A stretch of DNA of 49,125 nucleotides, taken from assembly GCA_011524855.1 (NCBI GenBank), contig WTJK01000061.1, forward strand, positions 77,426-126,550. The letters are read 5' to 3'. The translations under genes were made by a program, and so were the position numbers. The notes under the pieces were generated by a model, which was not told the DNA's origin, searched no databases, and saw only the letters and a program-made list of their open reading frames with translations. Shown piece after piece: positions 21,889 to 39,542 of the stretch. Position 1 is the stretch's first letter. Each line of letters begins with the position of its first letter. The DNA comes from Methanobacteriota archaeon. Lineage in GTDB: Archaea > Thermoplasmatota > Poseidoniia > Poseidoniales > Poseidoniaceae.

Positions 21889-24408
21889 ATGGCCGCTCCC
21901 TCCATCGTTCACGAACCGAGCGGTGCGATGGTGGTGCCGCTGGCGTTGGCGATGTTGACCGCATGGCTGTTTTGGGATCGCATCGTTCCCCGGCAACTGC
22001 GCGGCCTCCAAGTGGCGTTCAAAACCTCCAACATGCATTACGAAGTCCACCGTGTCACCCATTCGGTGGACGATGTCAAACACCTGCTCCGAAGACGGGG
22101 GACCCGTTTTGGTGTGGCGTCGTACTTGATGGCCCTGGCCGGCATCTTGGTGCTGCTGTTCGATTTTCTCCTGTTCGCCAACGGAGGTTCCGAGGGAATG
22201 CATGCACCAACGGTGGCCCTCGGCGTCGTGTTCATCGTCTTGCCCGCCCTTGTGTCAAGCGGCACCTCGCTTGGAGCCCAAGTCATCCGTCCGTTGGGCA
22301 CGAGCAAAGCCACGCTGCAGAACAACACACAGGCGCGCAACTTCGCTTACTTCGCCATGATGCTGGCTTGGTTGGGATTGGCCATCGCCTTCGAAGCGGT
22401 GCTCGAAGGGCAAGGGGTGGCGAGCCAACGTCGCTCCAGTTTGGTCGCATTGTTTGCTTTCAGCCCAGCGGTGTTGGCTTACGGCCGCATTTTAGGTTCG
22501 TCTTGGAACGCTCTCAAGGAGTCCTCCTCTCACATGGCCAACGGCCGTGCCTCGCCCTTTCACAACCACGTGCCGACGGCCCGACAACAATTCGTGGCCC
22601 AACTGGTGCACCTCAACCTTCTCGTGATGCCGTTCGTTGCCATCAACACCTTGCTATCCGTGGTGCTGTTGCTCTACAACCCCGACCTCTTCACCCACAG
22701 CGATCGCGTGTTGGCCCTTCCTGAGTACCGCCTGCAAAGCACCTACATGGAAGAAGGCGGTTTGCTTGGGTTCTGGCTGATCGAACTTTTCGCCCACATT
22801 CCCGAAGAGGGCATTCGTGTGCCCATGGTCACGGCTGTGTTGCTGTTTTTGCTCATGAACGTCGCCATTGTAGGTTTCTTGTTTGTGTACGAGGTCGCGC
22901 GCATTCTGTTTCTGGACGTTCAAGATTTCGCTGGCCGAGGTGGTATTCGCTTGGCGGACAGCCGCCTGCTCCGTGCCGAACCCGTTCAACAAGCGACGGT
23001 GTTGAATTTCTGCTTCACCGGATTTGCTGGTCAATCCATGCTATTGCTCGCTCTTGCGATGGTCACGTTTTGGGATTCCGCCTACCTGCCGCAAGGTGCT
23101 GCCTGCGGTACATGGGAATCCAGTTTGTGTTCCGTGCTCGAGAAAAACACGCTCGAGGAATTGACGTGGATGTTGGCGGCAGGAGGGCAAATTGCGTTCC
23201 TGGTGGTCTGGTTCGCCTCTCGAGGTCGCTCTCGAACCTTGAGCGAATTCACCTTTGATGCTTCCATGGACGAAGACCGGACCCGCCTCCGCAGCATGAG
23301 CGACATGATCTACCTCAAGCAACGGCCCATCAACGACCTCATTGGCGACGGGGACTGGCAAAAGGCCCTCGGTCGTTTTGATGAAGTGAGCCGAGGCAAC
23401 ATCGACACCCTCGTCGGGCTGGACATGATTCGCCGGGCCCATGCCGGCATGGTGTTGAACGCAGGACTGGGTCGTTGGGATGAAGCAGAAGAGTTGGCCA
23501 TTGACCTGCTGGCGATCCAAGGCGGCCGCGATGCAGAATCCACGCGTTTGTTCCTGTGTGCCGCCAGTTTGGCTCAACGCGACCTCCGAGAAGCCGAACC
23601 ACGGTTGGATCTCCTGCCGGAACACGACGTGGAAGGGGCGAGGCTGCGATGGTTTGCCAGCCTGATGAACCCCAAGCGACGCCTCGAAGAACATGCGTCG
23701 TCCATGCTCGCCATCGACCCCGTCACCCGAGAAAACAAGGCCCTGCTGGAAGCCTACGCCTCCCAACAACTTCGTCAACCCAACCTCGTCATGAACAAAC
23801 CCGTCAACCGGATGGTGTTTTTGGGGCACTTGGCCAGGTTGCGGCTTGACGGCCAATCCGAACGAGCGCTGGACCTGCTTGAAGCGGCCATGAAAACCGT
23901 TGAACTGGATTGGGTCCAAGCCAAGGTCGTGCAGTGCCTTCTGAACATGGATGCAGGACGGGTGAACACGGCGGTGCGCCAAATCGACGACCTGGCCACG
24001 CAACACCCTCGCCATCCTCACGTACGAGCAGCGTTGAACTTGATGGCGAAGTTGGGTCACACCAAACTGCCCCCGAGGGAAGACACCAACATGCAATGGG
24101 CGACGGAAGGCGACACGGACTGGCGACACAGTTGGTCGGGTCACAACGTGAGCGTTCCACCTTCCTTGGACCAGCAGCACCTGCGCGAACATGCCTGGCA
24201 GGCCAATGCTTGGGTCGGATGGGGGACCAAGGCGGTGACGGTCTCGGCCGGCAAAAAGGCGCTGAAGCAACTGCCGAATCAACTCCCACTCGGCCTCCAC
24301 CTTCACCTCTCGGGCCTGGTCACGACCATCCAAGGTCAACCCATTGACCTCGGGTTTCCCGGTTTCGTGGACCTCAAGAAGGCCAAGGACCGAGGGTTGT
24401 TGGATTGA
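21889..24408 (+). CDS. polytopic membrane protein with helical-repeat tail
   Basis: This 839-residue protein was not recognised. The first roughly 440 residues contain about nine hydrophobic segments, such as MVVPLALAMLTAWLFW, LMALAGILVLLFDFLLF and VTAVLLFLLMNVAIVGFLF. The remaining 400 residues are soluble and helical. Phrases such as KALGRFDEVSRGN, GRWDEAEELAIDLLAIQGG and RALDLLEAAMKTVE have the rhythm of TPR-like repeats, which usually bind other proteins. It begins nine bases after thrS and is probably co-transcribed. It ends directly against the stop of the convergent membrane protein, which has the same architecture. A role in envelope assembly or as a scaffold is possible but not shown. 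Confidence 0.8.
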   Translation: MAAPSIVHEPSGAMVVPLALAMLTAWLFWDRIVPRQLRGLQVAFKTSNMHYEVHRVTHSVDDVKHLLRRRGTRFGVASYLMALAGILVLLFDFLLFANGGSEGMHAPTVALGVVFIVLPALVSSGTSLGAQVIRPLGTSKATLQNNTQARNFAYFAMMLAWLGLAIAFEAVLEGQGVASQRRSSLVALFAFSPAVLAYGRILGSSWNALKESSSHMANGRASPFHNHVPTARQQFVAQLVHLNLLVMPFVAINTLLSVVLLLYNPDLFTHSDRVLALPEYRLQSTYMEEGGLLGFWLIELFAHIPEEGIRVPMVTAVLLFLLMNVAIVGFLFVYEVARILFLDVQDFAGRGGIRLADSRLLRAEPVQQATVLNFCFTGFAGQSMLLLALAMVTFWDSAYLPQGAACGTWESSLCSVLEKNTLEELTWMLAAGGQIAFLVVWFASRGRSRTLSEFTFDASMDEDRTRLRSMSDMIYLKQRPINDLIGDGDWQKALGRFDEVSRGNIDTLVGLDMIRRAHAGMVLNAGLGRWDEAEELAIDLLAIQGGRDAESTRLFLCAASLAQRDLREAEPRLDLLPEHDVEGARLRWFASLMNPKRRLEEHASSMLAIDPVTRENKALLEAYASQQLRQPNLVMNKPVNRMVFLGHLARLRLDGQSERALDLLEAAMKTVELDWVQAKVVQCLLNMDAGRVNTAVRQIDDLATQHPRHPHVRAALNLMAKLGHTKLPPREDTNMQWATEGDTDWRHSWSGHNVSVPPSLDQQHLREHAWQANAWVGWGTKAVTVSAGKKALKQLPNQLPLGLHLHLSGLVTTIQGQPIDLGFPGFVDLKKAKDRGLLD

Positions 24409-26193
24409 TCAAACCCGCCGACGCAACCGTTCCATGCAGGCATCAGCCGTTGCAAGATGGCCCAAGCAGGCTTCAATGTCGCTGACACCGAGCGCTTCTC
24501 CTGCCAGCGCTACGGCTTCCTCGCAAGCCCGACGGTCATCGTCCTCCACCCCGATGTTCGAGGCATCGCATTGGTTGCGAAGAATCCGCCAACCGTCGTT
24601 CACGAAATCGTAGAGTTCCAGGGCCTCGTCGGTGTCCTGACCCGCCTTGTCAAGGGTTGCCGTCATGCGCTCCAACAAGGTGGCAGCGTGAGACCATTGC
24701 TTTGATTGAGCTGCTGCCTCAATGTCGGCAAGACGTTCACGCCAGGTGGCTTCGTCGCTGCGGCCTTCGAACCGTTGGACCAGTTGCTTCTTTTGCTTCA
24801 TGGCCCGACGAACGTCGTCCATGGCCCGCCGCTCGCGCTCAAGGGTCCGAACCACACCATCCGCCAGACCGATGGCTTGCGCTGCGTGGCCTTGCTCCAG
24901 GGCATCGTCGGCTTGGTGAAGACGATCGTTCAACTCAGCCACATCAAGTCCGTCGGTCGCATTCAATTGGCGCCTGGCTTCCTTCACCGAGACGGCGGCT
25001 CGGTCCAGCGCTTCACCGTCGGCTTCGAGCTGTGGCGGAATGACGACGGCAAATTCGTAGGCCTCCTTGGGTTGTTCAGCGTTGAGTTTGGTCCGAGCGT
25101 CGTTCAGCAATTCGTGCAAATGGGCAACGCCAGCCCCGTGTTGACCGTCCAAGGCCCGGGCAGCCGCCGTGATGGCTTGCTCGGCTCGTGCCCACCATTC
25201 AATCACATCGTTCGCCCGGCGTTTGGCTTGACGGAAGAGTTGTTCACCCTCACGAAGGGCACCCAATTCCACCTCTCGAACACCCATCGCATAGGCCTTG
25301 CGAGGGCGCTTGACAACGGGGGCGAGGGCTTCGGCCCTCTCCACGGCGTCCAAGGAAGCGAGGCGGACCGCATCCACATCGCCTGCCAGCGACACGGCAC
25401 GGTTCATGTCCTCCTCGCACTCATCGAGGACCTGCATTCCGTACTTGACATCGAGGTGGCCTTCCTCCTTGGCGGTCGTCAAGAGGCTTGATGCCTGCGC
25501 CACAGCGTCACCGTTGGCCTTCATTTCCAACAGGCGAAGCTCGAGCACATTCAATCGTTGACGAAACACTTTGCGAAGGTCACGGTCCTCGTCACCGGCG
25601 AACCAATGGTGAACGGTGTCGGCCACAGCGAGCGCAAGCACGGCCAAGCCGAGTGCACCTGCAGCGGTGTCCATTCGCTCACCGGTGAGCACCAGTACCC
25701 CACCCGAGAGGCAACCAATGCCCGTCATCAACGATCGGAACCGCAGGACACCAAACGAACCGCGAAGCACGGTGGTGGACGTACGACGGCATGCAAGGGC
25801 TGCAACCAGCACGAGGGCCCCTCCCAGCATGCCAAAGGCGTTGGTGCCGTTGATTCCGCTGGTGGCCTGCACGGCAAGGACCGGCCATGCCACCGAGGTC
25901 GCTGCACCGAGCCTTGACCTGGCAGAGGGAGCGTCAACCGCGAGGTCTTGGAGAAAAATCCCCCAGAGAAGCAGCAGCAACGGGGCTCCAAAACTCGTCA
26001 AGTCAACGGAGCGACCTGAGATCAGATCGTTCATTGAGGGCCATGCAAGCCAGGCCGCAGACCCAAGCATCAGCAAGGCGGTGAACATCGTCAGTGATTC
26101 GACCGAGCGCTGACGACGCACGTGCTCGGCTTCGATGGCCGAATCGGTGTCCGCCCATGTCACCATGGCTTTGCTTCCCCACATCACCCCCAT
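24409..26193 (-). CDS. membrane protein with long helical cytosolic domain
   Basis: This roughly 594-residue protein was not recognised. The N-terminal 230 residues hold about six hydrophobic segments (for example LTMFTALLMLGSAAWLAW and ALGLAVLALAVADTV). After that the chain is nearly all charged helix: ERAEALAPVVKRPRKA, GEQLFRQAKRRAND, LDRAAVSVKEARRQL and similar repeats suggest coiled-coil or TPR-like bundles. Start codons at 26193, 26184 and 26166 are all ATG; the last has GGGGAAG upstream, and an in-frame TTG exists at 26244. It converges on a gene of the same general design with no base between the stops. The 90 bases upstream of 26193, shared with pyrB, show no clear promoter for this gene. 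Confidence 0.8.
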   Translation of the reverse strand: MGVMWGSKAMVTWADTDSAIEAEHVRRQRSVESLTMFTALLMLGSAAWLAWPSMNDLISGRSVDLTSFGAPLLLLLWGIFLQDLAVDAPSARSRLGAATSVAWPVLAVQATSGINGTNAFGMLGGALVLVAALACRRTSTTVLRGSFGVLRFRSLMTGIGCLSGGVLVLTGERMDTAAGALGLAVLALAVADTVHHWFAGDEDRDLRKVFRQRLNVLELRLLEMKANGDAVAQASSLLTTAKEEGHLDVKYGMQVLDECEEDMNRAVSLAGDVDAVRLASLDAVERAEALAPVVKRPRKAYAMGVREVELGALREGEQLFRQAKRRANDVIEWWARAEQAITAAARALDGQHGAGVAHLHELLNDARTKLNAEQPKEAYEFAVVIPPQLEADGEALDRAAVSVKEARRQLNATDGLDVAELNDRLHQADDALEQGHAAQAIGLADGVVRTLERERRAMDDVRRAMKQKKQLVQRFEGRSDEATWRERLADIEAAAQSKQWSHAATLLERMTATLDKAGQDTDEALELYDFVNDGWRILRNQCDASNIGVEDDDRRACEEAVALAGEALGVSDIEACLGHLATADACMERLRRRV

Positions 26194-26283
26194 AATCCAT
26201 GCGCCGACCCGATTCGGTTGAGGGGCAGTCCCCCCAAGGTTCAAGGGTGGGTTTCAACGGTGATGAACAAGCGAGGGGACGAC

Positions 26284-27727: not shown

Positions 27728-28747
27728 TCAAGCAGCAGCGTCTTCAATGTCGAGCAGGTCTCGCATATCGCAGGCTTTGCACTGAGTTCCCGAAGTGATG
27801 CTTCCGCATCGAGGACATGGAATGGGAGGGGGTGTTTGGTGGCCTTCGCCGCCCGAGGCGACCACACGGTCACGCAACGCTTTGACCTGGTCGGCCATCT
27901 TCACCAAACCGTGCCGAGTTCCGGGAACATCCGCCTCCATGCTGGCCACCATTTCCCGGTGCCGCCAACGCAAAGCGCCGCGGGCGTTGGGGCACTCCTC
28001 GTGATGCAACGGTAACGAACGGTGCAGGGCATAGAGGTGAATTTCTTGTTCAGGGACCCAGCGCAGCGGCACGATACGCGGCGCCAACCCCTCAACAGGT
28101 GTCGATGTGTGGGGTGCGAGTCGCAGGGTGCGTTCCAAATCGCCGTTGGTCACGTTCATCAGCACGGTTTGGGCCATGTCGTCCAAGTTGTGACCCAGCG
28201 CCACGACGTCCGCACCGACCCGCTGTGCAAGGTGGTTGATGCCTTGCCGTCGAAACACCCCGCAGTAGGCGCAGGCCATACGAGGGGCATTCTTGTCCTT
28301 CGCCAAGACCGAGGGGAGGCGCTTGACGACTCGATCCATTTCGAGAAACGACAACTCGGGGTACGTGACCACCTCATGACGCACGCCCAAACGGTCGCAG
28401 AGGTCTTGGGCGCACTGGATGGAAGGTGGTCGGTAACCCTCGATGCCTTCGTCCACGGTGCCCGCAACGATGGTCACGTCCCTGCGCTGACCCAACAGGT
28501 CAACAAGGACGTCCAGCAGCACGGCCGAATCCTTGCCCCCCGAGACGGCCACCAACACGGTTGTATGCGCCCCTTTTTGCAACGGCAGTTGTTGGCGCAA
28601 CTCCTTGCTGATCTTTTTTCGAACAGACTTCGCGAGGTGCTTACCGCACAATATTCGGCCAGAATAGGCTTGTTCAACCACGGCAGGGCGGTCGCAAGCG
28701 TCGCAAGAAGGGACGGCGAATGCAACGCCATCGCTACCGTCCACCAT
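27728..28747 (-). CDS. ncsA: tRNA 2-thiolation enzyme, NcsA/TtuA family
   Basis: A 339-residue ATP-pyrophosphatase that probably inserts sulphur at position 2 of a tRNA uridine (wobble U34 or T-loop U54). The layout is typical of the CTU1/Ncs6/TtuA group: an N-terminal zinc finger (Cys15, Cys18, Cys34, His37), the PP-loop SGGKDS (69-74), GHNLDDMAQT, and three catalytic cysteines able to hold a 4Fe-4S cluster (Cys159, Cys162 in CAYC and Cys252 in EECPNAR). A C-terminal zinc finger follows (Cys311, 314, 323, 326). The family normally takes sulphur from a ubiquitin-like protein, which is not encoded nearby. The ATG at 28747 is preferred; a GTG at 28792 would add 15 residues and lies only about 18 bases from a likely transcription start. 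Confidence 0.88.
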   Translation of the reverse strand: MVDGSDGVAFAVPSCDACDRPAVVEQAYSGRILCGKHLAKSVRKKISKELRQQLPLQKGAHTTVLVAVSGGKDSAVLLDVLVDLLGQRRDVTIVAGTVDEGIEGYRPPSIQCAQDLCDRLGVRHEVVTYPELSFLEMDRVVKRLPSVLAKDKNAPRMACAYCGVFRRQGINHLAQRVGADVVALGHNLDDMAQTVLMNVTNGDLERTLRLAPHTSTPVEGLAPRIVPLRWVPEQEIHLYALHRSLPLHHEECPNARGALRWRHREMVASMEADVPGTRHGLVKMADQVKALRDRVVASGGEGHQTPPPIPCPRCGSITSGTQCKACDMRDLLDIEDAAA

Positions 28748-28810
28748 GGTAGCCCCAGCGTAGAAGGGGGTTTCAAACCACCTCTTGCACACCGAATCTC
28801 AACTCGGATT

Positions 28811-29039: not shown

Positions 29040-29399
29040 ATGCTGAACCGTGTGTTAACAGCCCTCATGGAACGTGAGTCGCTTCGGCAGGCGGCCATGA
29101 TCGACGACATGGGCCGGTTGTTGGCCGGCGTCACCGAACCGGGTCAAGCCCCCGAAGCCGCACGCCACATCCCGCTTCTTGTCGCCGCCCTTGAGGCACA
29201 ACAACAACTCGGGCTGGGCGAGCTCCACGAAGTCTGGACCGAAGGCGAGGAGCGAACCCTGCTCGACCTGATCACGCCGTACCGCGTGTTGATTCTCCAA
29301 GGCCAAGTTGGGCGTTTGGGCCGATGGCGTCACAGCGTTGACCACCTTCGGTCTGCACTCGCTCACGCCCGCGTTTCTGAGGTGAACCACCATGTTTGA
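29040..29399 (+). CDS. Roadblock/LC7-like protein
   Basis: A 119-residue protein with the layout of a Roadblock/LC7 (longin-related) domain: an N-terminal helix (NRVLTALMERES), two strands QAAMIDDMGRLLAGV, a long helix (ARHIPLLVAALEAQQQL), then strands HEVWTEGEERTLLDLITPYRVLILQG and a final helix. In other organisms these domains dimerise and regulate small GTPases or act in motility and polarity complexes such as MglB. No GTPase gene is seen beside it. The assignment rests on fold pattern, not close similarity. Its stop overlaps the next gene by eight bases, so production of the two is coupled. It is the first gene of a likely three-gene operon. Confidence 0.6.
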   Translation: MLNRVLTALMERESLRQAAMIDDMGRLLAGVTEPGQAPEAARHIPLLVAALEAQQQLGLGELHEVWTEGEERTLLDLITPYRVLILQGQVGRLGRWRHSVDHLRSALAHARVSEVNHHV

Positions 29400-32300
29400 A
29401 CTCCCGCAAGGCCAACCTTTCGAAGACGATTTTTCCCTCGAAGAGGGCACCTTGTTACCGTTCGCCCATGGTGCCATCACGACCACCGTCGGTCGACGGA
29501 AAACCCCCAGCGGCCACCGTTTGGTGCGAGGGGGGAAACCCGTTGCGTGGATGGCGAAAAACGCAGACGGCGACTTGTTGGGGGGGCTTGAGGCTCGCCT
29601 TGAACTTGAACGTCTGGAACGTGAATCCAACACCAAGTGGTCGGCCACCGTGTACACCATCCGTGGATTGGGCGAAGTGGCGGATGCTGTCCCGGAGGCG
29701 TTCGAACACCAAGCCGATCGTCAGGGGCTCGGCGCCCGAGTCAACCATGTTGAGCGCCTTCTGGCAAGGGACCTCTCCTCCGTGGTGGAACAGTTGGCTG
29801 CCCACGTCACGGTCCGTGGAGCACTGGCCATGGACGGAGGCTTGCTCATCGATCACGCGGGTGATTTGCCCGGCCTGGGAGAGGCCGAGGCCGTGTGCGC
29901 CCACCTCCACGATTTGCTCAGCGGCATGAACGCCGAATCGTTGGCGACCGAATTGGGCCTGCACGGTCAAGGCCACATCACGTTGCACAGCGACAAGGGT
30001 TCCCTGCTTCTGGCACAAAGCGGCACCATCGCTCTGGCGGCGTGGACCGAAAAAGATGCCAACCACGCCCGGCTCCTCTCCGGTGCTTCGCTGGCCTTGG
30101 AAGGTGAACTGGGTGCTGCTGGACACGGAGGGGCAGCCCTACCGGAAGGATTCACGCTACGCGACGGCAAGGGAGGCCCGGATGCTGTGATCTCCATGCT
30201 GAAAGCCGCCATGGACGAATCCGTCACCGGCCATGTTCAGGCCGGGGCGTCAAGCAAGGCCGTTTCCATCGTCCTCGACCGTGGTGTACCGGTGGCATGC
30301 TGGGCTCCCGCAACGGAAAGCATGAGCGAAGCCATGCAGATGTTCACCGACCCGAAACGCAAACTCAAGTTGATTCGTTTCCCGTCCGGCACCATCGTTT
30401 CACCCCAATCAGGGACCGTGGAAGGGTTTGCATTGGCCACGTTCTGCAACGATTTGGCCACCGCTCGCACCCGCTCTGAGGCACGCCAAACAACGCTGAC
30501 AGCCTTGCTGAACGAAGCGTTTGGATTCGAAATGGGGCTTCAGCAACTCAAAGTTGCTCGTTCAAAGATGGCATTTGTGTCGTCCGGAGCTGAGGTCGCT
30601 GAGCCGCTCCCCGTGATGAAGGACCAGGCCGTTGCCGCGATGGACGCAGGTTTGCGTCGACGGTTGGAAAAGTCACAACAACGGGAGGATGCCCTCACAC
30701 GGGAAAAGGCGAAGTTGGAGCGAAAAGTAGCCCAACTTGACAAACAGCGTAACGCAGCCGACATCGTTGCAAGAGAAGCCTCGGAAGCAAGGCAAGAACA
30801 CACCGTCGCACTGGAAGAAGCGAACGCTTCTCTCAACAGCATGCAGGTTGATCTGGCCCAAGCCCGAACCGTAGCAGAAGAGGCCGATGCTCGCGCAGAA
30901 CGGCTGATGCGCCGGGTCAACGAGCTTGAGCATCAGGTCAGCGAACGAGCGGCTGAGTTGGCCAAAGCCCTTGGCGAGTCCTCTTCAAGTGCAGCCCTTC
31001 ACACCACCATCACCGATTTGTCCTTGAAGGAGGCGGAGTTGAAGGCCAACCTCGATGAGGGTGGTCAGCGGCTTTCCAGCGTCCGTCAGCAGAGCGAAGA
31101 CGAGGAGCGACGGTTGCGCGTGCTCACCGAACAGGTCAGCACGGCAAGGGAGCGCCACGCACGCGTGCAGGCCGACCTGCTCTCCTTGCAGGAACAAGTG
31201 CACCTTCAACAGGTGGAACTCGATGCTTCAAAGGCAGAAGTAAAGGCGGCACAAACCCGCTTGGACGAGGACAGGGAGCGCCGTTCCGAGGAGGAGTCAC
31301 GACGCAGCCACGTGCAAGCTGAACTTCGTGAACTGATGGATGAACGCCGTGTGCTGCTTCGGGAATTGGGTGATTTGGGTGCTCGCCGGGGGCACGCAGA
31401 GGCTGAACTTTCATCCTTGGTCAACAAAGCCACGGCGCTTGCCGAGGCCCATGAGGAAGCCTTGGCCGACATCAAAGAAGCAGAACGCCTGCGTGCCCGG
31501 TTGGCCGAAGAACCGTTGGCACAAGCCTTGCTCAACGACCACGCCACCTTCGAAGGGTTGGGGCCTGTGCTCAACCGGCTCGAACACGCTCGAACGTTGG
31601 GCTATTCCGTGACCATGCTGGACCGTGCGGTTGAACGCTCGCTGCAAGTCATCCAGGCCACGGTGGACCACGTCGCCTCGACACCGCGCCACCTCCTCTC
31701 CAGCGAAGTGATGACCCTGCTGGAGCGTCAAGTCCCCCAAACAGCAGGTGCGGTCAGGGGCTTGGCACGGTGGTCCGTCCAACAACGGCTTGAGCATCAA
31801 CTCGGCGAAACCGTCAATCATGTGGTCCTCGATCTCGAACACCTGCTGGAGGATTACGACCGCTCGATCACGATGCTTCGACGAATTCGACATGTGCTGG
31901 AGCAAGTTCACCGGTTGGGCGCTCCTGAGCATGAAGTTCGGGCGTTGCTTGCCAACTGCCAGCGCCCAGAAGCACTTCCGTCGTTGGCGCAGGGCACCCG
32001 TCGCTTGATTCAAGTGGCCCTTGACGACATCTACCTCGAAGCCGACCAACGCAACGCAGGTGAAGCCATGGCTCTCGAAGAAACCGCCAAGGTACTCGAA
32101 GAACTGATTTCACAAATTGATGCCTCGGGACTGGCAGACGGCATACCGCAAGGCCAACTGTGGGACTTCCAGCGAGATGGTTTGCTGCCCTTTGAACGTG
32201 ATTCCATCCCCGAAGCAGAACGCTTGCCGGTGTCGGCAGGCATGCTGGAGGACTTGGAGCCGCACCTCTTGGCCGAGGACCGTCTTGATGTGGCCGCAAC

Positions 32301-32574
32301 GGCGTCCTCACCCGACGTTGATGATGAAGGTTGGTCGACGCTTCCTGCACCGAACACGGAGGAAATGGCAGCCACAACCCCCACACCAACAACCGTGGAC
32401 GATTCGCCAGCGATGACGACCAGCGAAGAGGACGAGCGAGCGTCGTTGGAGGCAGAGTTGGCAAGGATTGACGCAGCATGGAGCCACCGAGAAGCGAACC
32501 CCTCACCGTTGACCAGCGCCAAAGACACGGCCCTGACCGATCTTGAATCCCGTCTGTCCGAACTTGAATTCTAG
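29392..32574 (+). CDS. 1060-residue protein: Roadblock-like domains plus coiled coil
   Basis: I do not know this protein. Residues 135-235 (VRGALAMDGGLLIDHAG through LLLAQSGTIALAAW) fit a Roadblock/LC7-like fold. Residues 18-60 and 262-355 contain shorter strand-helix units (GHVQAGASSKAVSIVLDRGVP and similar) that recall the DUF4388/PATAN type. Residues about 420-720 form a long heptad-rich coiled coil (KSQQREDALTREKAKLERKV and onward) like an SMC arm or myosin tail, but there is no Walker A motif, so it is not an SMC ATPase. Residues 740-960 are a helical bundle and the last 90 are acidic, Thr/Pro-rich and likely disordered. GAGGTGA six bases before the ATG is a strong ribosome site. It overlaps the small Roadblock-like gene, suggesting the two proteins bind each other. 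Confidence 0.8.
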   Translation: MFELPQGQPFEDDFSLEEGTLLPFAHGAITTTVGRRKTPSGHRLVRGGKPVAWMAKNADGDLLGGLEARLELERLERESNTKWSATVYTIRGLGEVADAVPEAFEHQADRQGLGARVNHVERLLARDLSSVVEQLAAHVTVRGALAMDGGLLIDHAGDLPGLGEAEAVCAHLHDLLSGMNAESLATELGLHGQGHITLHSDKGSLLLAQSGTIALAAWTEKDANHARLLSGASLALEGELGAAGHGGAALPEGFTLRDGKGGPDAVISMLKAAMDESVTGHVQAGASSKAVSIVLDRGVPVACWAPATESMSEAMQMFTDPKRKLKLIRFPSGTIVSPQSGTVEGFALATFCNDLATARTRSEARQTTLTALLNEAFGFEMGLQQLKVARSKMAFVSSGAEVAEPLPVMKDQAVAAMDAGLRRRLEKSQQREDALTREKAKLERKVAQLDKQRNAADIVAREASEARQEHTVALEEANASLNSMQVDLAQARTVAEEADARAERLMRRVNELEHQVSERAAELAKALGESSSSAALHTTITDLSLKEAELKANLDEGGQRLSSVRQQSEDEERRLRVLTEQVSTARERHARVQADLLSLQEQVHLQQVELDASKAEVKAAQTRLDEDRERRSEEESRRSHVQAELRELMDERRVLLRELGDLGARRGHAEAELSSLVNKATALAEAHEEALADIKEAERLRARLAEEPLAQALLNDHATFEGLGPVLNRLEHARTLGYSVTMLDRAVERSLQVIQATVDHVASTPRHLLSSEVMTLLERQVPQTAGAVRGLARWSVQQRLEHQLGETVNHVVLDLEHLLEDYDRSITMLRRIRHVLEQVHRLGAPEHEVRALLANCQRPEALPSLAQGTRRLIQVALDDIYLEADQRNAGEAMALEETAKVLEELISQIDASGLADGIPQGQLWDFQRDGLLPFERDSIPEAERLPVSAGMLEDLEPHLLAEDRLDVAATASSPDVDDEGWSTLPAPNTEEMAATTPTPTTVDDSPAMTTSEEDERASLEAELARIDAAWSHREANPSPLTSAKDTALTDLESRLSELEF

Positions 32575-32584
32575 GGTGGTTCAC

Positions 32585-32830
32585 ATGGGCGCCCCCGAGA
32601 CCTTGATGGGACGCGAAGAACGACCGGGCCCTTCTGCACCGCTGTGGCTGGAGCGGGTTCTGTTGGTGTTGGTGGTCACCGGCGTGGTGGTGGTTGGCCC
32701 AACGGTGCACGGTGCATTGGGCACCGGTTGGGCATGGGGTGTGGCGGCGTACGCTGGCCTCACACTGGTGCTCTTGGGGTTGTCAGAATCGTTGGGACGG
32801 TGGCTCCAAGCTCGCATCAAAGCTGACTGA
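32585..32830 (+). CDS. small two-helix membrane protein
   Basis: An 81-residue protein with two hydrophobic segments, LERVLLVLVVTGVVVVGPTV (about 21-40) and WGVAAYAGLTLVLLGLSE (about 50-67), joined by a short loop and flanked by charged ends (MGREER and RWLQARIKAD). It is not recognised. The start at 32585 has GGGTGGT upstream and lies ten bases after the coiled-coil gene, so it probably belongs to the same operon and may anchor that protein to the membrane. Its last 14 bases overlap the converging membrane-protein gene. Confidence 0.7.
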   Translation: MGAPETLMGREERPGPSAPLWLERVLLVLVVTGVVVVGPTVHGALGTGWAWGVAAYAGLTLVLLGLSESLGRWLQARIKAD

Positions 32831-34034
32831 AATCCTTGGACGGCGGCTCAACGTCAACCGGCGCAAGGCGAGACTGGACAAAGCCGATGACGCGCTGCCA
32901 TGGAATGAAGAAGCGAAGCAGCGCCATCATGCCGAGGAACAGCAACGCCGAGATCACGAGACCGTAGGTGAGGGTCAGTTCAATGGACTCTGAAACCTGA
33001 CCCGCCCATTGGTTCCCGGTCGTGTCCGACACCAACGTCAACAACACCTTGTGGAACCCGAGCGCCATCATGGTGGCCGCCCCCGTGAAACCGAGGAACA
33101 AAAACGTATGACGAAGATGGGTGTTGAGGACGTTGTCCATTTGCCGCACGTACTCAGGATCTCGCTTGCACGATTCCGGGAGACGGAAGGCGTACTCCAG
33201 GTTTCGAATCACGCCGTAGGCTGCCTCTTGGAACACCATGATGAGGATGGCGATGAGGATGAGACTGAATTGCTCCTGGGTCACCAGTTTGAGCCCCAGG
33301 AATCCAATGGTGGGGTTGGACGTTTGGCTCTCGAGCGTGGTCAACGCACCACCGTAGTCGCCCAATTGACCACGAATCAACGGGAACGTCAGGAGGGCAT
33401 GGATACCCAGGAACAGCAATGTGAATCCAATCGACCAAGCGATGGAACGACGGGAAAGCCCCCAAATGCCACGCGTGCCCATGATAACCGGCAGGAGATA
33501 GATGAAGAGGATCATCAGCGAGAGAATCATCAACAACGGCCACTGCAATGTCTCGAGTTCGGAATCCGTCGGCAATCGAAGGTCAAACGTGAACAGCATT
33601 CCAGCCAGCCACGAGACCACGAGCCGTCCGATGAGCAACACCATCAAGCCAACGATGAGACCCAACTTCAGTCGCTGCTGGACTTTGGGAGATTGGAACG
33701 CGATGAAGGCCATGATGCCACCCAGCCCCACGCCGAGCACCAGCGGGACCACGAACCGACCCATCCCAGAACGTCCCTCACCCGTGAGCCAATCGCCGAT
33801 GGGGAGTTGGTCGGCGATGAGCAATTCGATGGTGTCAAAGACGATGGTGTGGTCAATGGATTCCACAACATAGGTCGACACCACCTCGAGGTACATGGCG
33901 ACAAGCGCCACGGTGGCAAGCACCTGAAGGGCCAGAATTTGCCATTGGCGTCGCAGGTTTTTCAGATGCAGGGTCCGCGGGCGAGCGCTGCCTTCGAGCA
34001 GGACATCGGACTGCAAACCGACCTCACCCGCCAT
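32817..34034 (-). CDS. eight-helix membrane protein
   Basis: A 405-residue protein with about eight hydrophobic segments, including FVVPLVLGVGLGGIMAFIAF, LGLIVGLMVLLIGRLVVSWL, LLMILSLMILFIYLLPVIMG and LVISALLFLGMMALLRFF. The N-terminal 25 residues are soluble and the C-terminus (VDVEPPSKDFSQL) is short and probably cytosolic. It is not recognised as a transporter family. It starts one base after the DUF58 gene stop and is the third gene of that operon, so it probably works with the DUF58 and DUF4350-like proteins in the membrane. The 3' end overlaps the small two-helix protein gene on the other strand. Confidence 0.8.
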   Translation of the reverse strand: MAGEVGLQSDVLLEGSARPRTLHLKNLRRQWQILALQVLATVALVAMYLEVVSTYVVESIDHTIVFDTIELLIADQLPIGDWLTGEGRSGMGRFVVPLVLGVGLGGIMAFIAFQSPKVQQRLKLGLIVGLMVLLIGRLVVSWLAGMLFTFDLRLPTDSELETLQWPLLMILSLMILFIYLLPVIMGTRGIWGLSRRSIAWSIGFTLLFLGIHALLTFPLIRGQLGDYGGALTTLESQTSNPTIGFLGLKLVTQEQFSLILIAILIMVFQEAAYGVIRNLEYAFRLPESCKRDPEYVRQMDNVLNTHLRHTFLFLGFTGAATMMALGFHKVLLTLVSDTTGNQWAGQVSESIELTLTYGLVISALLFLGMMALLRFFIPWQRVIGFVQSRLAPVDVEPPSKDFSQL

Positions 34035-34035
34035 T

Positions 34036-35289
34036 TCAGTACCCCCTCACCTGCATCAACGCCTGCGACAAATCCATGTCTGGCATCCAGTCAATGACCT
34101 GCGCACCTGACCCCGCCAAGGTGGTCAAGCGGTTTTGACGTTCGAGTTTCAGCACCTCGTAGGACATGCGAGGAATGCGGCTGACAAGCCGTTCAAAATC
34201 CACGCTTGAGGGGGACAAGACGGTCACCTCATGACCTCTTCCGACGAGGTCCCGGACCGCGGCAGGTACCGTACCGTCGCCTTCACACGAGGAGATGATG
34301 AACACCGGGCTGCCTCGGCTGAAACGTCCGCTGAGTGAATTGGTGACAGCTTGCAATGGCATGTTGCCTTTGGGCGTGACGCCGGCAAGAGCGCTGAGGA
34401 TCTTGAAGTACTGCTTGTCACCGGTGTCAGGCGGGAGGTAAGCGAGTTTCTCGTCGTAGATGGCGAGGGCCACCGAGTCGCGCCGCTTGAGGAAAAACGC
34501 CGCCAGGCTGGCGGCTGAGACCGTTCCCATCTCGAGCGGGTTCTTCAGCACCGTACCGATACGAGCCAAATCTCGGCTGTCGAGGATGAGGTACAGGTCG
34601 GTGACGGCGTCCCGACACTTCTCGTTGACCATCAAGTCACCCGTTCGGGCGTAGGCCTTCCAGTTGATGTTCTTGAACGGGTCACCAGGGACGTACTCCC
34701 GGAGTGAGTAAAATTCCGACCCCTGACCGGGCGTTCGCAAGGTGGTGGCACCGGTGTACATCTTGGGGGTGCGGCTGCGCAAAATGGCCTCCTCCACGTT
34801 CTTGATTTGGGGGAAGATGACGATGTCGCTGTGATGGTTCACGAACATTTCCTCCACACCGAGGTTGAACGTGTTGCGGGCACGCAACGAAACGGGACCG
34901 ATGGAATAGTGGCCTCGCAAAGGGCAGCGAAGCACGTAACGGATGCGAGCACTCTCACCCGGTTTCAGGTTCAACTGCATTTGATTGAGCCCGCTGCGTA
35001 GTTTCATCTCGTGAGGGATGTTGTCGTAAACGTCCAGCATCTGGGTCTTTCGATTGCTGCGGTTGGTTACCAACAACTCGACGTACAAATCGTCCCCTTT
35101 GTACAGATTATCGGCCGAAAGGGTGCGTTGGACTTCGACTTCACCGTGACCTGAAATCCACGAATTCACCACGATGAAGGCCACCAGCGTAAGGCCGAGG
35201 ATCATCATCTGCTGGTTGGAAATCATCATCCCAATGAGCACCAGCGCAATCCCGCCGGTAAAAGTGAAGGCTGCTTTACGCGTCCACAC
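34036..35289 (-). CDS. DUF58 family protein
   Basis: A 417-residue protein. Two N-terminal membrane helices (FTGGIALVLIGMMI and MILGLTLVAFIVVNSW) are followed by a beta-rich region (about 50-190) and the DUF58 hallmark REYVPGDPFKNINWKAYARTGDLMVNE (split here as residues about 218-245). A von Willebrand A-like domain follows with LYLILDSRD. DUF58 proteins usually sit beside a MoxR AAA ATPase and VWA proteins and are linked to assembly of surface or envelope complexes. Here there is no MoxR gene in the window. It is flanked by a DUF4350-like gene (nine bases upstream) and an eight-helix membrane protein (one base downstream) in one operon. Confidence 0.9.
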   Translation of the reverse strand: MWTRKAAFTFTGGIALVLIGMMISNQQMMILGLTLVAFIVVNSWISGHGEVEVQRTLSADNLYKGDDLYVELLVTNRSNRKTQMLDVYDNIPHEMKLRSGLNQMQLNLKPGESARIRYVLRCPLRGHYSIGPVSLRARNTFNLGVEEMFVNHHSDIVIFPQIKNVEEAILRSRTPKMYTGATTLRTPGQGSEFYSLREYVPGDPFKNINWKAYARTGDLMVNEKCRDAVTDLYLILDSRDLARIGTVLKNPLEMGTVSAASLAAFFLKRRDSVALAIYDEKLAYLPPDTGDKQYFKILSALAGVTPKGNMPLQAVTNSLSGRFSRGSPVFIISSCEGDGTVPAAVRDLVGRGHEVTVLSPSSVDFERLVSRIPRMSYEVLKLERQNRLTTLAGSGAQVIDWMPDMDLSQALMQVRGY

Positions 35290-35298
35290 GATCTCACC

Positions 35299-36918
35299 TC
35301 AGCTGCGTCCCCACGCTTTGATGCGTTTTACAAGGGCCACGGTTTGTTCCAAACTGTAGCGTCCACTGGTGTCCACAGCGAACTTCGAAAGAACGGGATC
35401 GTTGATCATGGAGACAAGTTCATTCGCCCGCATGTTCTGGAATTCTTCACGCGTGAGTCCGTTCTGGTTTCGGACCTTGGAAAGGAACACCTGCCGGATT
35501 TTGTCCACCTTGGCGTAGTAAGCATAGCGGTTGGCGTCGCCAAATCCGTAGTAGATGATGCTGAAGACGTGGCGCCAAGGTTCGGGGTCGCGCTTTCGGA
35601 TGAGGACCGCTTCGAAGACGATGAAGAGGATGAGGAACAGCAGCAACATGGCCAACCCTTCGCCCGTGAAGTACACCAGCAGGAAGTAGACCGTGTTGTA
35701 GGAATCAGCGGCCAGGGCGCTTTGCGGATGCCGTGATTCATCAAAGATCACCATGGCATTCGTGGCGGGTTGGCCCGCCTCCTCTGGGTCCTCGCTCATC
35801 AACGCCTCGGCAATGAAATCGAGGGCCCATTTTCGGTTGTCGTTGGCGGGCATCTGGGTGTCGGTCGGTCCGTATTCGCCGTCGTTGAACCCCTCGTGAT
35901 CGTACATGGCGTTGATCAGCGCAGAACCGTCCGAGATGAAGACCACGCGACCGCCATCGGTTGGAGAACAACTTGCACGGGCGCAGACCTCGATGCTGAG
36001 GTTGAATTGACCAAACCGGTCGGGCGTTTCGGGCGTGATTTCGTTGCCCACCCAGATCTCACCGTCACCGTTCACGTCCACCGTGGCCTCGTTGCTCGTG
36101 ATGGCACGCACCGACACTTCTGAGAGCGGGCCACGAACCCCCGGGATGACCTCAAGACCGGTGATGTTGTTGACGAGCATTTGGTACGTGGCGTTGAACG
36201 CCAAGGTGCCTCCGACCAGGTGGTGAGCGCACAGGCCTGCTTCCGTCTCGGTGAGTTGCTGACCGTTCAAGGCTGCGCACGGGTGACGCCCAGCGCTGTT
36301 GGCATCGGCCCATCGCTCATGCGCCGTGAGGGTGGTCGGGTCAAGGTCTGTGCCGTTCATGCCGCACGGGCTGGATTGGACGCACATCCAGATGTAGTTG
36401 TAATCGAGGCTTGCGGCGTAGGTTGTGTCAAACACTTGCTCACCCGTGTAACGGATGCCGAACGCTTCGGCAATGGTGCTGGCAAACCCGTAGTCTTCGA
36501 GCACCAGCGCCGTGCCCCCTGCCTCTACGAATTCAACGATGGCGTTGATCTCCGAGGGGGAGAATCCCTTTCCAGAAGCCACGGTGATGAATCCGTCGTC
36601 ATCAAACTGGGGCAAGGTGAGGGTGTCCCGTTCCACCCCCGCAAGGACGTACGTGGTGTTGCGAGGGTCGTCAATGTCGGCCAACAGCAACGGGCTGCTC
36701 ACCAGAGAACGCGTTTCAATGCCCATGGCTTTGATGTCGGAACGGAACGCCGACATGTCGTTCCAATCGTCGTCGTAAGCCGAGAGTTGGTTCGTGGCAC
36801 TGAGGTTGATAAAATTGGAAAGCACCGTCAACAGCAAAATGCCCAACACCGTCCAGAACGCGACCTGCAGGCCGAGCCTGCGAGCGTTGATGGAAGCGAA
36901 CGGGCCAGACATGAGCAT
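35299..36918 (-). CDS. DUF4350-like membrane protein
   Basis: A roughly 539-residue protein. A first membrane helix (LQVAFWTVLGILLLTVLSNFI) is followed by a large outside domain (about 40-415). This includes a Rossmann-like stretch with SPSEINAIVEFVEAGGTALVLEDY, typical of DUF4350/GldG-like proteins found with DUF58 genes. A second, long hydrophobic segment (YFTGEGLAMLLLFLILFIVFEAVLI) leads to a cytosolic tail of about 110 residues. The outside domain has several cysteines (CVQSSPC, CARASC) that could form disulphides. ATG codons at 36918 and 36912 are both possible, and a TTCTAAAG box lies about 43 bases upstream. It heads the three-gene operon. Its function is inferred only from the gene neighbourhood known for the family. 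Confidence 0.8.
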   Translation of the reverse strand: MLMSGPFASINARRLGLQVAFWTVLGILLLTVLSNFINLSATNQLSAYDDDWNDMSAFRSDIKAMGIETRSLVSSPLLLADIDDPRNTTYVLAGVERDTLTLPQFDDDGFITVASGKGFSPSEINAIVEFVEAGGTALVLEDYGFASTIAEAFGIRYTGEQVFDTTYAASLDYNYIWMCVQSSPCGMNGTDLDPTTLTAHERWADANSAGRHPCAALNGQQLTETEAGLCAHHLVGGTLAFNATYQMLVNNITGLEVIPGVRGPLSEVSVRAITSNEATVDVNGDGEIWVGNEITPETPDRFGQFNLSIEVCARASCSPTDGGRVVFISDGSALINAMYDHEGFNDGEYGPTDTQMPANDNRKWALDFIAEALMSEDPEEAGQPATNAMVIFDESRHPQSALAADSYNTVYFLLVYFTGEGLAMLLLFLILFIVFEAVLIRKRDPEPWRHVFSIIYYGFGDANRYAYYAKVDKIRQVFLSKVRNQNGLTREEFQNMRANELVSMINDPVLSKFAVDTSGRYSLEQTVALVKRIKAWGRS

Positions 36919-36957
36919 CACGTGGACTGAATCCTATCATTTCACGGGCTCACTTGC

Positions 36958-37012: not shown

Positions 37013-37252
37013 TCAACGATTGAGGTGAACACTGGCAGCGACGCGGGCCACGGATGCGGCTGGGATCATCACGGCGGAACCTTGGCTGGCAAAGGGCAGT
37101 GCAGCGGGCTCAATCCCTTCAGCCACTTCGACCAACAGTTCGCTCACGCTTCCGGTGTTGAGGTCGATGTGCAGGTCAATAAGGCGCCCGAGGAGCGCAC
37201 CGGTGCGGTCCAGCACGTCCCGACCAAGCATTTCTCGTCCAAAGATGGCCAT
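37013..37252 (-). CDS. PRC-barrel domain protein
   Basis: A 79-residue protein made almost entirely of a PRC-barrel-like fold. The opening IFGREMLGRDVLDRTGALLGRLIDLHID resembles the standard pattern (a short strand, GxxV.d..G..iG.v.D...d), then GSVSELLVEVAEGIEPAA. Such small proteins are widespread in archaea. In related systems PRC-barrel proteins act in RNA processing and, in several archaeal groups, in cell division with FtsZ-like partners. The ATG at 37252 is chosen because the fold begins directly after it. It follows the CDC48 gene by 61 bases on the same strand and may be read from the same promoter. Confidence 0.75.
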   Translation of the reverse strand: MAIFGREMLGRDVLDRTGALLGRLIDLHIDLNTGSVSELLVEVAEGIEPAALPFASQGSAVMIPAASVARVAASVHLNR

Positions 37253-37313
37253 GCGACACCCCCGATTGATGCAGAACCAGCGCCGGCCATTCAACCCATC
37301 GGTTGAGCAAACA

Positions 37314-39542
37314 TCACATCGTTTCCATGCCGCGACTGAAGTCCCGGTTGCGCTTGATGTTCGTCAAACCCGAAGTGAGTCGTGTTTCCATTTTCTGGTA
37401 GTACTCCAGCATGTCGGGTGTGACGGTGGGGCGGACGCGAGAGATGGCTTCTTCGAAGTGGCTCTTCGTGACCTTCTTCTTTTCCGCCCGCATGCAGATG
37501 AGTGCTGCTTCCCGGCAGACGGCTTCGATGTCAGCACCGGTGAACCCGTCCATGCCGGTCAACAAGTCCTTGAATGAAAATTTGCCAAGCGGCATGCCCT
37601 GCGTGTGGATGTTGAAAATGGATTGGCGGGCACCAGCATCGGGTGGCGGGACGTGAAGCACCCGCTCAAAGCGACCGCTGCGAAGCAAGGCCGGATCAAT
37701 CATTTCGGGGCGGTTGGTGGCTGCGACAATGATGACACCGTCCAGCGATTCGACGCCGTCCATGCTGGCCAACAGTTGGTTGACCACCCGATTGCCCACA
37801 TCACTGCCTTCCGAAGCAGAGCCACCGCTGCGCATGCTTGCAATGGACTCAAACTCGTCGAGGAAAATGATCGAAGGCGAGGACTGCTTGGCCTTTTTGA
37901 AGATCTCTCGGATGGCACGCTCGGATTCACCCACCCACTTTGAGATGAGTTCCGGACCCTTGATGCTGATGAAGTTCGCTTGAGCCTCGTTGGCAATGGC
38001 TTTGGCCAAGAGGGTCTTTCCGGTTCCGGGTGCACCGAACAAAACAATACCTCGTGGCGGCTTGATGCCGAAGTGTTCGAAGAGTTCGGGCTTGGTGAGC
38101 GGCCATTCAACCGATTCTTTCAATCGATCCTTGACCTCGAGCAGACCGCCGACCTCGTCCCATGAAACCTCGGGCACTTCCACGTAGATCTCGCGTAGTG
38201 CAGAGGGTTCAACGTCCTTGATGGCTTCTTTGAAATCGTCCATGCAGACTTCCATTTTTTCGAGCACTTCAGGCGGGATGGTGTCCTCGTCCAGGTCAAT
38301 CTCGGGGAGGTAGCGACGCAGGGCTTTCATGGCCGCTTCACGCACCAAGGCAGCGAGGTCGGCACCGACGAAGCCGTAGGTGTTGTCAAGCACCCACGTG
38401 ATGTCGAAGTCCTCGGCAATGGGCATTTGCCGGGTGTGGACGTCCATGATCTCGCTCCGCCCTTCACGGTCGGGCACACCAATCTCGATCTCGCGATCAA
38501 AACGTCCTGGGCGTCGCAGGGCGGGGTCGAGCGCATCACGACGGTTGGTGGCGCCGATCACCACGACGTTGTCACGGCCCTGCATGCCGTCCATCAAGGT
38601 CAGCATCTGTGCCACGACACGACGCTCGACCTCACCCGTCACGTCCTCTCGTTTTGGACAGATGGAATCGATTTCGTCAATGAAAACAATGGCTGGTGAA
38701 TTTTCTGCGGCCTCATCAAAGATTTCACGGAGTTGCTTCTCCGATTCCCCGTAGTACTTGGAGATGATTTCAGGGCCGTTGATGCTCTTGAAGTGGGCGT
38801 TGACCTCGGTGGCCACCGCCTTGGCGATCATCGTCTTCCCCGTACCGGGCGGTCCGTGAAGCAGCACGCCCTTGGGCGGGTCGATCCCCAGCCTTCGGAA
38901 CAACTCTGGATGCTTGAGGGGTAGCTCGATCATTTCTCGAACCTTCTGAAGCTGCTGACCAATGCCGCCCACGTCTTCGTAGGTGATGCCTTCCGCTTGC
39001 CCAACGTCCTCGTCGGGAACCGCTTCGTCCTTGATGACAATCTCCGTGTCGGTGGTGACCTTGACAATGCCTTTGGGCACGGTGTTCACCACGGCAAAGG
39101 GCAAGGCTTCCGCGAAAAGGGTCATGCCGGGAATGAAGATGCGGTCGCCGGTCACGACCGGTCGCTTGGCGAGGCCGCGCTTGGCAAAACCCTCAATCCC
39201 TGGGCCGAACTTGACCTTCTGCTTGTTGGCCATGACCGGGGAGATGGTCAACTTGGTGCAGTCCTTGGCATCCACCTTGGTCACCGTCACCCGGTCGCCC
39301 AAACTCACACCTGCGTTCTTTCGGATGATACCATCGATGCGGATGATGTCCATCTTGGCGTCCTCGGGCCGACTCCGCCAGTAAATGGCGGCTGTGGACC
39401 GTGATTCACTGCTGATTTTGACGATGTCACCGGGCTTCAAGTCAAGACCCATCTCGGCCGAGATGCGGGCACGCCCGTGACCGACATCGGACGGGATGGC
39501 TTTGGACACGCGAACTTCTATGGCTGCATCGTCGTTTGACAT
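37314..39542 (-). CDS. CDC48/VCP-type AAA+ ATPase
   Basis: A 742-residue unfoldase built like archaeal VAT and eukaryotic p97. The N-terminal double-psi barrel and four-stranded barrel cover about 1-185. The D1 ring has Walker A GPPGTGKT (230-237), Walker B FIDEID and sensor GATNRRDALDPALRRPGRF. The D2 ring has Walker A GAPGTGKT, Walker B IIFLDEFES and ATNRPEMIDPALLRSGRF. It pulls apart folded proteins, often ahead of the proteasome. The C-terminus ends in RGMETM and lacks the HbYX tail that docks some AAA rings on the 20S proteasome, so any such link would need another contact. GAGGGGAG before the ATG is the ribosome site and a TATA box lies about 37 bases upstream. Confidence 0.97.
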   Translation of the reverse strand: MSNDDAAIEVRVSKAIPSDVGHGRARISAEMGLDLKPGDIVKISSESRSTAAIYWRSRPEDAKMDIIRIDGIIRKNAGVSLGDRVTVTKVDAKDCTKLTISPVMANKQKVKFGPGIEGFAKRGLAKRPVVTGDRIFIPGMTLFAEALPFAVVNTVPKGIVKVTTDTEIVIKDEAVPDEDVGQAEGITYEDVGGIGQQLQKVREMIELPLKHPELFRRLGIDPPKGVLLHGPPGTGKTMIAKAVATEVNAHFKSINGPEIISKYYGESEKQLREIFDEAAENSPAIVFIDEIDSICPKREDVTGEVERRVVAQMLTLMDGMQGRDNVVVIGATNRRDALDPALRRPGRFDREIEIGVPDREGRSEIMDVHTRQMPIAEDFDITWVLDNTYGFVGADLAALVREAAMKALRRYLPEIDLDEDTIPPEVLEKMEVCMDDFKEAIKDVEPSALREIYVEVPEVSWDEVGGLLEVKDRLKESVEWPLTKPELFEHFGIKPPRGIVLFGAPGTGKTLLAKAIANEAQANFISIKGPELISKWVGESERAIREIFKKAKQSSPSIIFLDEFESIASMRSGGSASEGSDVGNRVVNQLLASMDGVESLDGVIIVAATNRPEMIDPALLRSGRFERVLHVPPPDAGARQSIFNIHTQGMPLGKFSFKDLLTGMDGFTGADIEAVCREAALICMRAEKKKVTKSHFEEAISRVRPTVTPDMLEYYQKMETRLTSGLTNIKRNRDFSRGMETM

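Follow-up and report, generated by a model that had tools for sequence, protein, structure and literature searches.

The products of two adjacent genes of the archaeal order Poseidoniales, A and B, may assemble into a dedicated complex that serves as scaffold or tether, with a Roadblock head, a coiled coil and a conserved tail for a partner, a reading to which we assign a probability of roughly 45%. Genomes retain or lose the two genes jointly, and no Ras-type GTPase of archaeal origin was detected alongside them; for these reasons the pair looks like an archaeal scaffold or tether of an undescribed kind. Roadblock domains are an ancient platform that, together with small GTPases, sets polarity, motility or membrane signalling in bacteria and eukaryotes. 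If the reading is true, a dedicated Roadblock pair without a GTPase in Marine Group II would indicate that the platform can be a scaffold by itself. Poseidoniales are an abundant and mostly uncultured marine order, and the A-B complex and the partner of the C-terminal domain of B offer concrete, testable targets in the cell biology of Marine Group II.

Genes A, B and C lie in a conserved block

The window, the whole 49,125-nucleotide stretch of DNA that was analysed, carries the two genes together with a third, C, between two neighbours listed here with them.

27728-28792, transcribed divergently: PP-loop (TtuA-type) gene, upstream of gene A
29040..29399, plus strand: gene A, predicted single-domain Roadblock/LC7 protein of 119 aa (stop codon inside the coordinates)
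29392..32574, plus strand: gene B, 1060 aa, predicted Roadblock head, coiled coil and conserved helical C-terminal domain
32585..32830, plus strand: gene C, small membrane protein of 81 aa with the motif TLxGRxExxGxxYPLWxER
32817-34034, converging on gene C: membrane-protein gene that shares 14 nt with the end of C

A preliminary description of this DNA had proposed three overlapping or near-touching open reading frames, and these are present where it placed them: A and B overlap by 8 nt, and the best start of C is the ATG at 32585, 10 nt past the end of B. Across 58 loci the distance from the stop of A to the start of B ranged from -8 to +13 nt. The check on gene order that the same description called for was also borne out, as the order A-B-C was retained in almost every locus inspected and is fixed across Poseidoniales. 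The three genes belong to a block, PyrB-PyrI-TtuA-A-B-C-(405-aa membrane protein)-DUF58-DUF4350-PRC-barrel protein-Cdc48, that is kept with few rearrangements in both families of the order; none of the conserved neighbours of A-B is a GTPase gene. A, B and C are real genes.

Gene A is predicted to be a Roadblock/LC7 protein

The A protein of the window matched the Pfam family Robl_LC7 (PF03259) weakly, at 13.1 bits against a cut-off of 23 (E=0.084). The same model matched 26 of 39 homologues of A at E<=0.5, the best at 4.1e-8, and one family member scored above the curated cut-off (32.2 bits vs 23). When the profile of the A family was compared with the PDB, it retrieved the Thorarchaeota Roadblock 7f8m (E=1.6e-10), followed by 7yh1 (1.2e-6) and 9jue (2.6e-5).

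AlphaFold modelled A with a pLDDT of 91.8 and the element order H-E-E-H-E-E-E-H, which is the alpha-beta-beta-alpha-beta-beta-beta-alpha fold of Roadblock/LC7 proteins, and the top Foldseek matches of this model were MglB and Asgard Roadblock3 (TM 0.76-0.80, probability 1.00). Profile match, predicted fold and Foldseek together identify A as a true Roadblock/LC7 protein, and the single Roadblock/LC7-like domain first suggested for it is thereby upheld.

Gene B joins a predicted Roadblock domain to a long coiled coil and a conserved tail

The AlphaFold model of B (mean pLDDT 72) and the alignment of its homologues divide the protein into six parts, all on the plus strand.

29449..29721, plus strand: residues 20-110, alpha/beta unit D1 (AlphaFold pLDDT mostly 80-89; no Pfam match above chance)
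29743..30111, plus strand: residues 118-240, predicted Roadblock domain D2 (Foldseek, hhalign to A, profile match to 3leq)
30133..30516, plus strand: residues 248-375, alpha/beta unit D3 (AlphaFold pLDDT mostly 85-90; no Pfam or PDB match)
30634..31509, plus strand: residues 415-706, long coiled coil with a break near 526-532 (hydrophobic periodicity; helices in the model)
31540..32211, plus strand: residues 717-940, all-helical C-terminal domain (most invariant alignment columns, low mean distance)
32425..32571, plus strand: residues 1012-1060, two conserved short helices that end an acidic disordered linker (alignment, model)

Residues 118-240 are predicted to form a second Roadblock domain, on both fold and profile similarity. 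All 50 Foldseek matches listed for the whole B model were Roadblock/LC7/LAMTOR-type chains or complexes named for them, hhalign aligned this segment with A at E=1.2e-4, and the B profile matched the Roadblock structure 3leq at E=0.0025. The further Roadblock domain anticipated in the 1060-residue protein can thus be placed at residues ~118-240, and with it the structure-prediction check returned a Roadblock fold for both A and B.

The two “related strand-helix units” of the preliminary description held up in part. Two alpha/beta units, ~20-110 and ~248-375, do flank the Roadblock domain, and the model arranges their elements similarly; profile-profile comparison with hhalign detected no kinship of D1 and D3, and we set it aside on these grounds. 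Neither unit had a Pfam relative above chance when five divergent members were scanned, and D3 had no match in the PDB either. The element order of D3 resembles the PATAN/DUF4388 type, an identity that we likewise set aside, as the Pfam scan of the five divergent members gave no DUF4388 match and the PDB search no match.

The coiled coil comprises about 290 residues in all, modelled as helices 415-525 and 533-706, with ~39% charged residues and a hydrophobic periodicity of 101-103 degrees per residue, that is, the 3.5-residue heptad repeat. A P-loop-like string occurred in just three of 37 homologues, and B has no conserved P-loop. Heptad periodicity without a conserved P-loop confirms the SMC-like coiled coil lacking ATPase motifs that had been noticed at the outset. 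NCBIfam SMC models do match the coiled coil (E=3.4e-11), so that B could be imagined as an SMC- or MukB-like chromosome organiser whose ATPase head was lost. The match, however, is limited to the coiled coil and reaches 41.6 bits against a curated cut-off of 567; the head regions are occupied by the Roadblock and unassigned domains, and both the coiled coil and the C-terminal domain carry a net negative charge. With no Walker A/ABC-type ATPase head and a score far under the family cut-off, we do not assign B to the SMC proteins, and we regard a chromosome organiser of this descent as very improbable.

The slowest-evolving part of B is its C-terminal domain, with a mean distance of 0.55 vs 1.64 for the Roadblock domain, and residues 717-940 gave no match to anything known. 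The short terminal helices (1012-1060) are possible docking peptides.

Genomes of the window's family lack detectable archaeal Ras- and Arf-type GTPases

Ras and Arf models were searched against 23 genomes of the family, namely the genome that contains the window, which is 84% complete, and 22 others with a completeness of at least 90%. No archaeal small GTPase of the Ras or Arf type was detected in any of the 23; the co-occurring small GTPase proposed as a check was thus not found, which speaks against the usual role of Roadblock proteins. Near or above the cut-off of the Ras model we found only NOG1-like and aIF5B-like GTPases, named from their sequences, plus a Rab in one assembly, and the Arf model added nothing beyond those GTPases. 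In the assembly in question (G007), a Rab-like protein whose sequence ends in CAIL is accompanied by a second copy split into three pieces, and this looks like eukaryotic contamination. Both models matched in nearly all control genomes and are therefore sensitive. A very divergent GTPase could escape the search.

Among genomes with an MglB homologue, 200 of 238 also have MglA, and the two usually co-occur in prokaryotes (PMC4316618). The Poseidoniales case departs from this pattern: the cognate MglA/Ras-like GTPase expected of an MglB-type regulator was not detected in the 23 family genomes, which makes a classical MglA/MglB-like switch unlikely. A-B could still be a GAP or GEF platform for a divergent or elsewhere-encoded small GTPase, as MglB or MglB/MglC is for MglA. 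The closest solved folds are indeed MglB and Asgard Roadblocks, Roadblock genes are common elsewhere in the phylum, and the usual co-occurrence of the MglA and MglB genes points the same way; set against the missing Ras/Arf matches and the conserved neighbourhood of A-B, which includes no GTPase gene, these points leave regulation of a GTPase an unlikely function.

A and B were lost together, and C stayed

Gene B was present, usually in single copy, in 141 of 146 genomes of the window's family and in all 21 that are at least 90% complete. Identity to the B protein of the window falls from 80% to 33% with the reading frame retained, the deepest homologues in the alignment being 33-39% identical. 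B occurs throughout the window's family (f1), and in the sister, second family of the order (f2) it is confined to genera g15, g17, g19 and g115. The other f2 genera, another family of the class and the sampled rest of the phylum lack it. Outside the order, homology was confined to two weak matches, both to the coiled-coil part. A GTDB scan with the single B sequence returned zero matches and a scan with the B alignment 196, and the best 80 of the 196 bore Poseidoniales or unspecific euryarchaeal titles, bar two bins labelled bacteria.

Gene A was detected in 11/11 genomes of the order with B and in 0/10 without it. In a tree of five block genes, the genera without B form one clade (support 1.0) nested within those that have it, and the most plausible history of A-B is therefore presence in the ancestor of the order followed by a single loss. 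At the loci without B, the PP-loop gene and the gene for the 405-aa membrane protein are still neighbours and the rest of the block is intact. Gene C, too, is retained: 10 of 11 loci of this A/B-less branch of the sister family have it in place between those neighbours, an observation partly confirmed independently. Since A and B were lost together while C remained, the unit is A plus B and not the trio, and since C was spared, the deletion was bounded by A-B. The joint loss is a single event, and one deletion could have removed both genes merely through their adjacency, which makes it weak evidence by itself. A mirror-tree comparison, a weak test, gave a partial r of 0.28 for A against the Roadblock domain of B and of 0.23 for an unrelated neighbour.

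These losses bear directly on gene C, for which a small membrane protein of 81 residues had been predicted. The 81-aa protein carries two hydrophobic stretches, one strong and the other weaker, and its N-terminal motif is conserved; family searches with it gave nothing above chance. With C as obligatory anchor, the three products could form a membrane-anchored scaffold for cell shape, division or chromosome positioning, as first proposed, and C does lie close behind B in most loci with its conserved motif kept. The persistence of C in genomes that lost A and B, and its apparent absence from some genomes with B, such as those of genus g19, tell against such an anchor and against one functional trio, and we consider this arrangement improbable, about as much so as GTPase regulation. 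As a small membrane protein encoded next to A-B, C may assist them without being obligatory.

Archaellins and B overlap imperfectly

Bacterial Roadblocks function in motility polarity (PMC9481161), and A-B might position or regulate the archaellum or cell polarity. Archaellin genes are found in 112 of the 118 f1 genomes with A-B and, within f2, in 16/23 genomes with B vs 20/73 without it. Two genera that lack B (g14 and g114), however, carry archaellins, and seven genomes with B show none, including four of the five of genus g17; these exceptions refute a strict link to the archaellum. The tree shows a single loss of B, which leaves the association without statistical weight, and a role of A-B in the archaellum or polarity appears slightly less probable than GTPase regulation.

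Proposed architecture of the A-B complex

For the scaffold or tether that we favour, we propose that A and the internal Roadblock domain of B form a pair like MP1/p14 of Ragulator, and that this pair and the two flanking alpha/beta units of B would form a globular head. The coiled coil (~290 residues, with a length of roughly 40 nm in the case of a parallel rod) would separate two such heads from the C-terminal domain, and this helical domain, together with the short docking helices, would bind a conserved partner. The Roadblock platform would then be an adaptor and would not regulate a Ras-type GTPase. We infer the A-B heterodimer, the rod geometry and the scaffold role from the models and gene distribution described above; A or B could instead form homodimers.

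A second Roadblock locus is found in four genomes of two families (L248-L251), where a further Roadblock gene has coiled-coil genes around it, DUF7121 among them. The locus also includes a PurP-like gene and, in three of its four instances, a gene of acetyltransferase type, both named from sequence and not by family search, and in L249 a KaiC-type ATPase follows. Pairing of Roadblock and coiled-coil genes hence occurs twice in Poseidoniales. In its most specific form our proposal is tentative: Poseidoniales may have a Roadblock system free of small GTPases, a heteromeric platform carried by a coiled-coil rod of ~40 nm, with a C-terminal domain specific to the lineage, serving as a cytoplasmic tether or cytoskeletal organiser of an undescribed kind and constituting one of at least two Roadblock-plus-coiled-coil modules.

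Comparison with known systems

A literature search found no described system with this gene set, as had been supposed, and neither the literature nor the family libraries searched held a description of the B architecture, the A-B pairing or the absence of the GTPase. Within Poseidoniales, the second locus resembles A-B in having a Roadblock gene amid coiled-coil genes in the same organisms, but it lies at another genome site, encodes other coiled-coil proteins and no B-like protein, and is unrelated to the A-B locus. SMC proteins share with B the composition and length of the coiled coil, whereas B has no ATPase head or conserved P-loop and stays far under the family cut-offs.

The closest parallels are Roadblock proteins themselves. 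MglB/MglC of Myxococcus and Thermus have the same fold as A and as residues 118-240 of B, with MglB chains on top of the Foldseek matches of A; here, in contrast, one Roadblock lies within a 1060-residue coiled-coil protein and an MglA-like GTPase was not detected in the family. Asgard Roadblocks (7f8m, 7yh1, 9jue) gave the best profile and structure matches, but the Asgard chains with solved structures have a single domain and about 120 residues, and Asgard archaea encode small GTPases (PMC10933270). The Roadblock domain of B matches LAMTOR-type chains, and the proposed heterodimeric platform is alike in Ragulator/LAMTOR and MP1-p14; in contrast to Ragulator, Rag GTPases are missing, and in one partner the Roadblock domain shares its chain with a long coiled coil and a new C-terminal domain. 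The A-B domains belong to a known superfamily, and what appears new is the architecture of B, its pairing with A and the lack of a detectable GTPase.

Atypical homologue records

An interrupted homologue of B, the 1060-residue Roadblock and coiled-coil protein, lies in what we take as the closed MGII chromosome CM001443.1:

L031:7803-10984 (genome G011), interrupted B homologue

Its frame is broken near residue 960, just ahead of the tail, by a shift and a stop, which may be a natural split of the gene or may stem from an error in sequencing. Two further B homologues, at loci L163 and L170, come from GTDB species records whose titles read Rhodobiaceae and Flavobacteriales; these records are evidently mislabelled archaeal bins. 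Rab-like genes occur in the archaeal MAG G007:

L176 and G007:C15:807-1445, Rab-like genes

One has a CAIL end and another is fragmented, with stops between the pieces; both look like eukaryotic contamination.

Conserved neighbouring genes and a second Roadblock locus

Besides A-B-C (the Roadblock/LC7, B and 81-residue membrane protein genes), the window holds two conserved gene groups:

21889-24408 and 24409-26244, opposite strands, abutting end to end, two large membrane protein genes
32817-36921 and 37016-39542, conserved array convergent to A-B-C and beside it

The cytosolic parts of the two large membrane proteins are TPR-like or rich in helices, and neither protein received a confident family assignment; their gene pair is conserved across many Poseidoniales loci. 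The array, which codes for a 405-residue membrane protein with multiple spans, for DUF58 and DUF4350 proteins, for one PRC-barrel protein and for Cdc48, is retained in both families, including loci that have lost A-B.

A second Roadblock locus is conserved in Poseidoniales, represented by four loci:

L248:3409-7631
L249:3316-8541
L250:46-6272
L251:3182-9453

It encodes two coiled-coil proteins, one reaching ~730 residues, and includes Roadblock, DUF7121 coiled-coil and PurP-like genes, with an acetyltransferase-like gene as a usual, not constant, member. In L249, a KaiC-type ATPase gene then follows.
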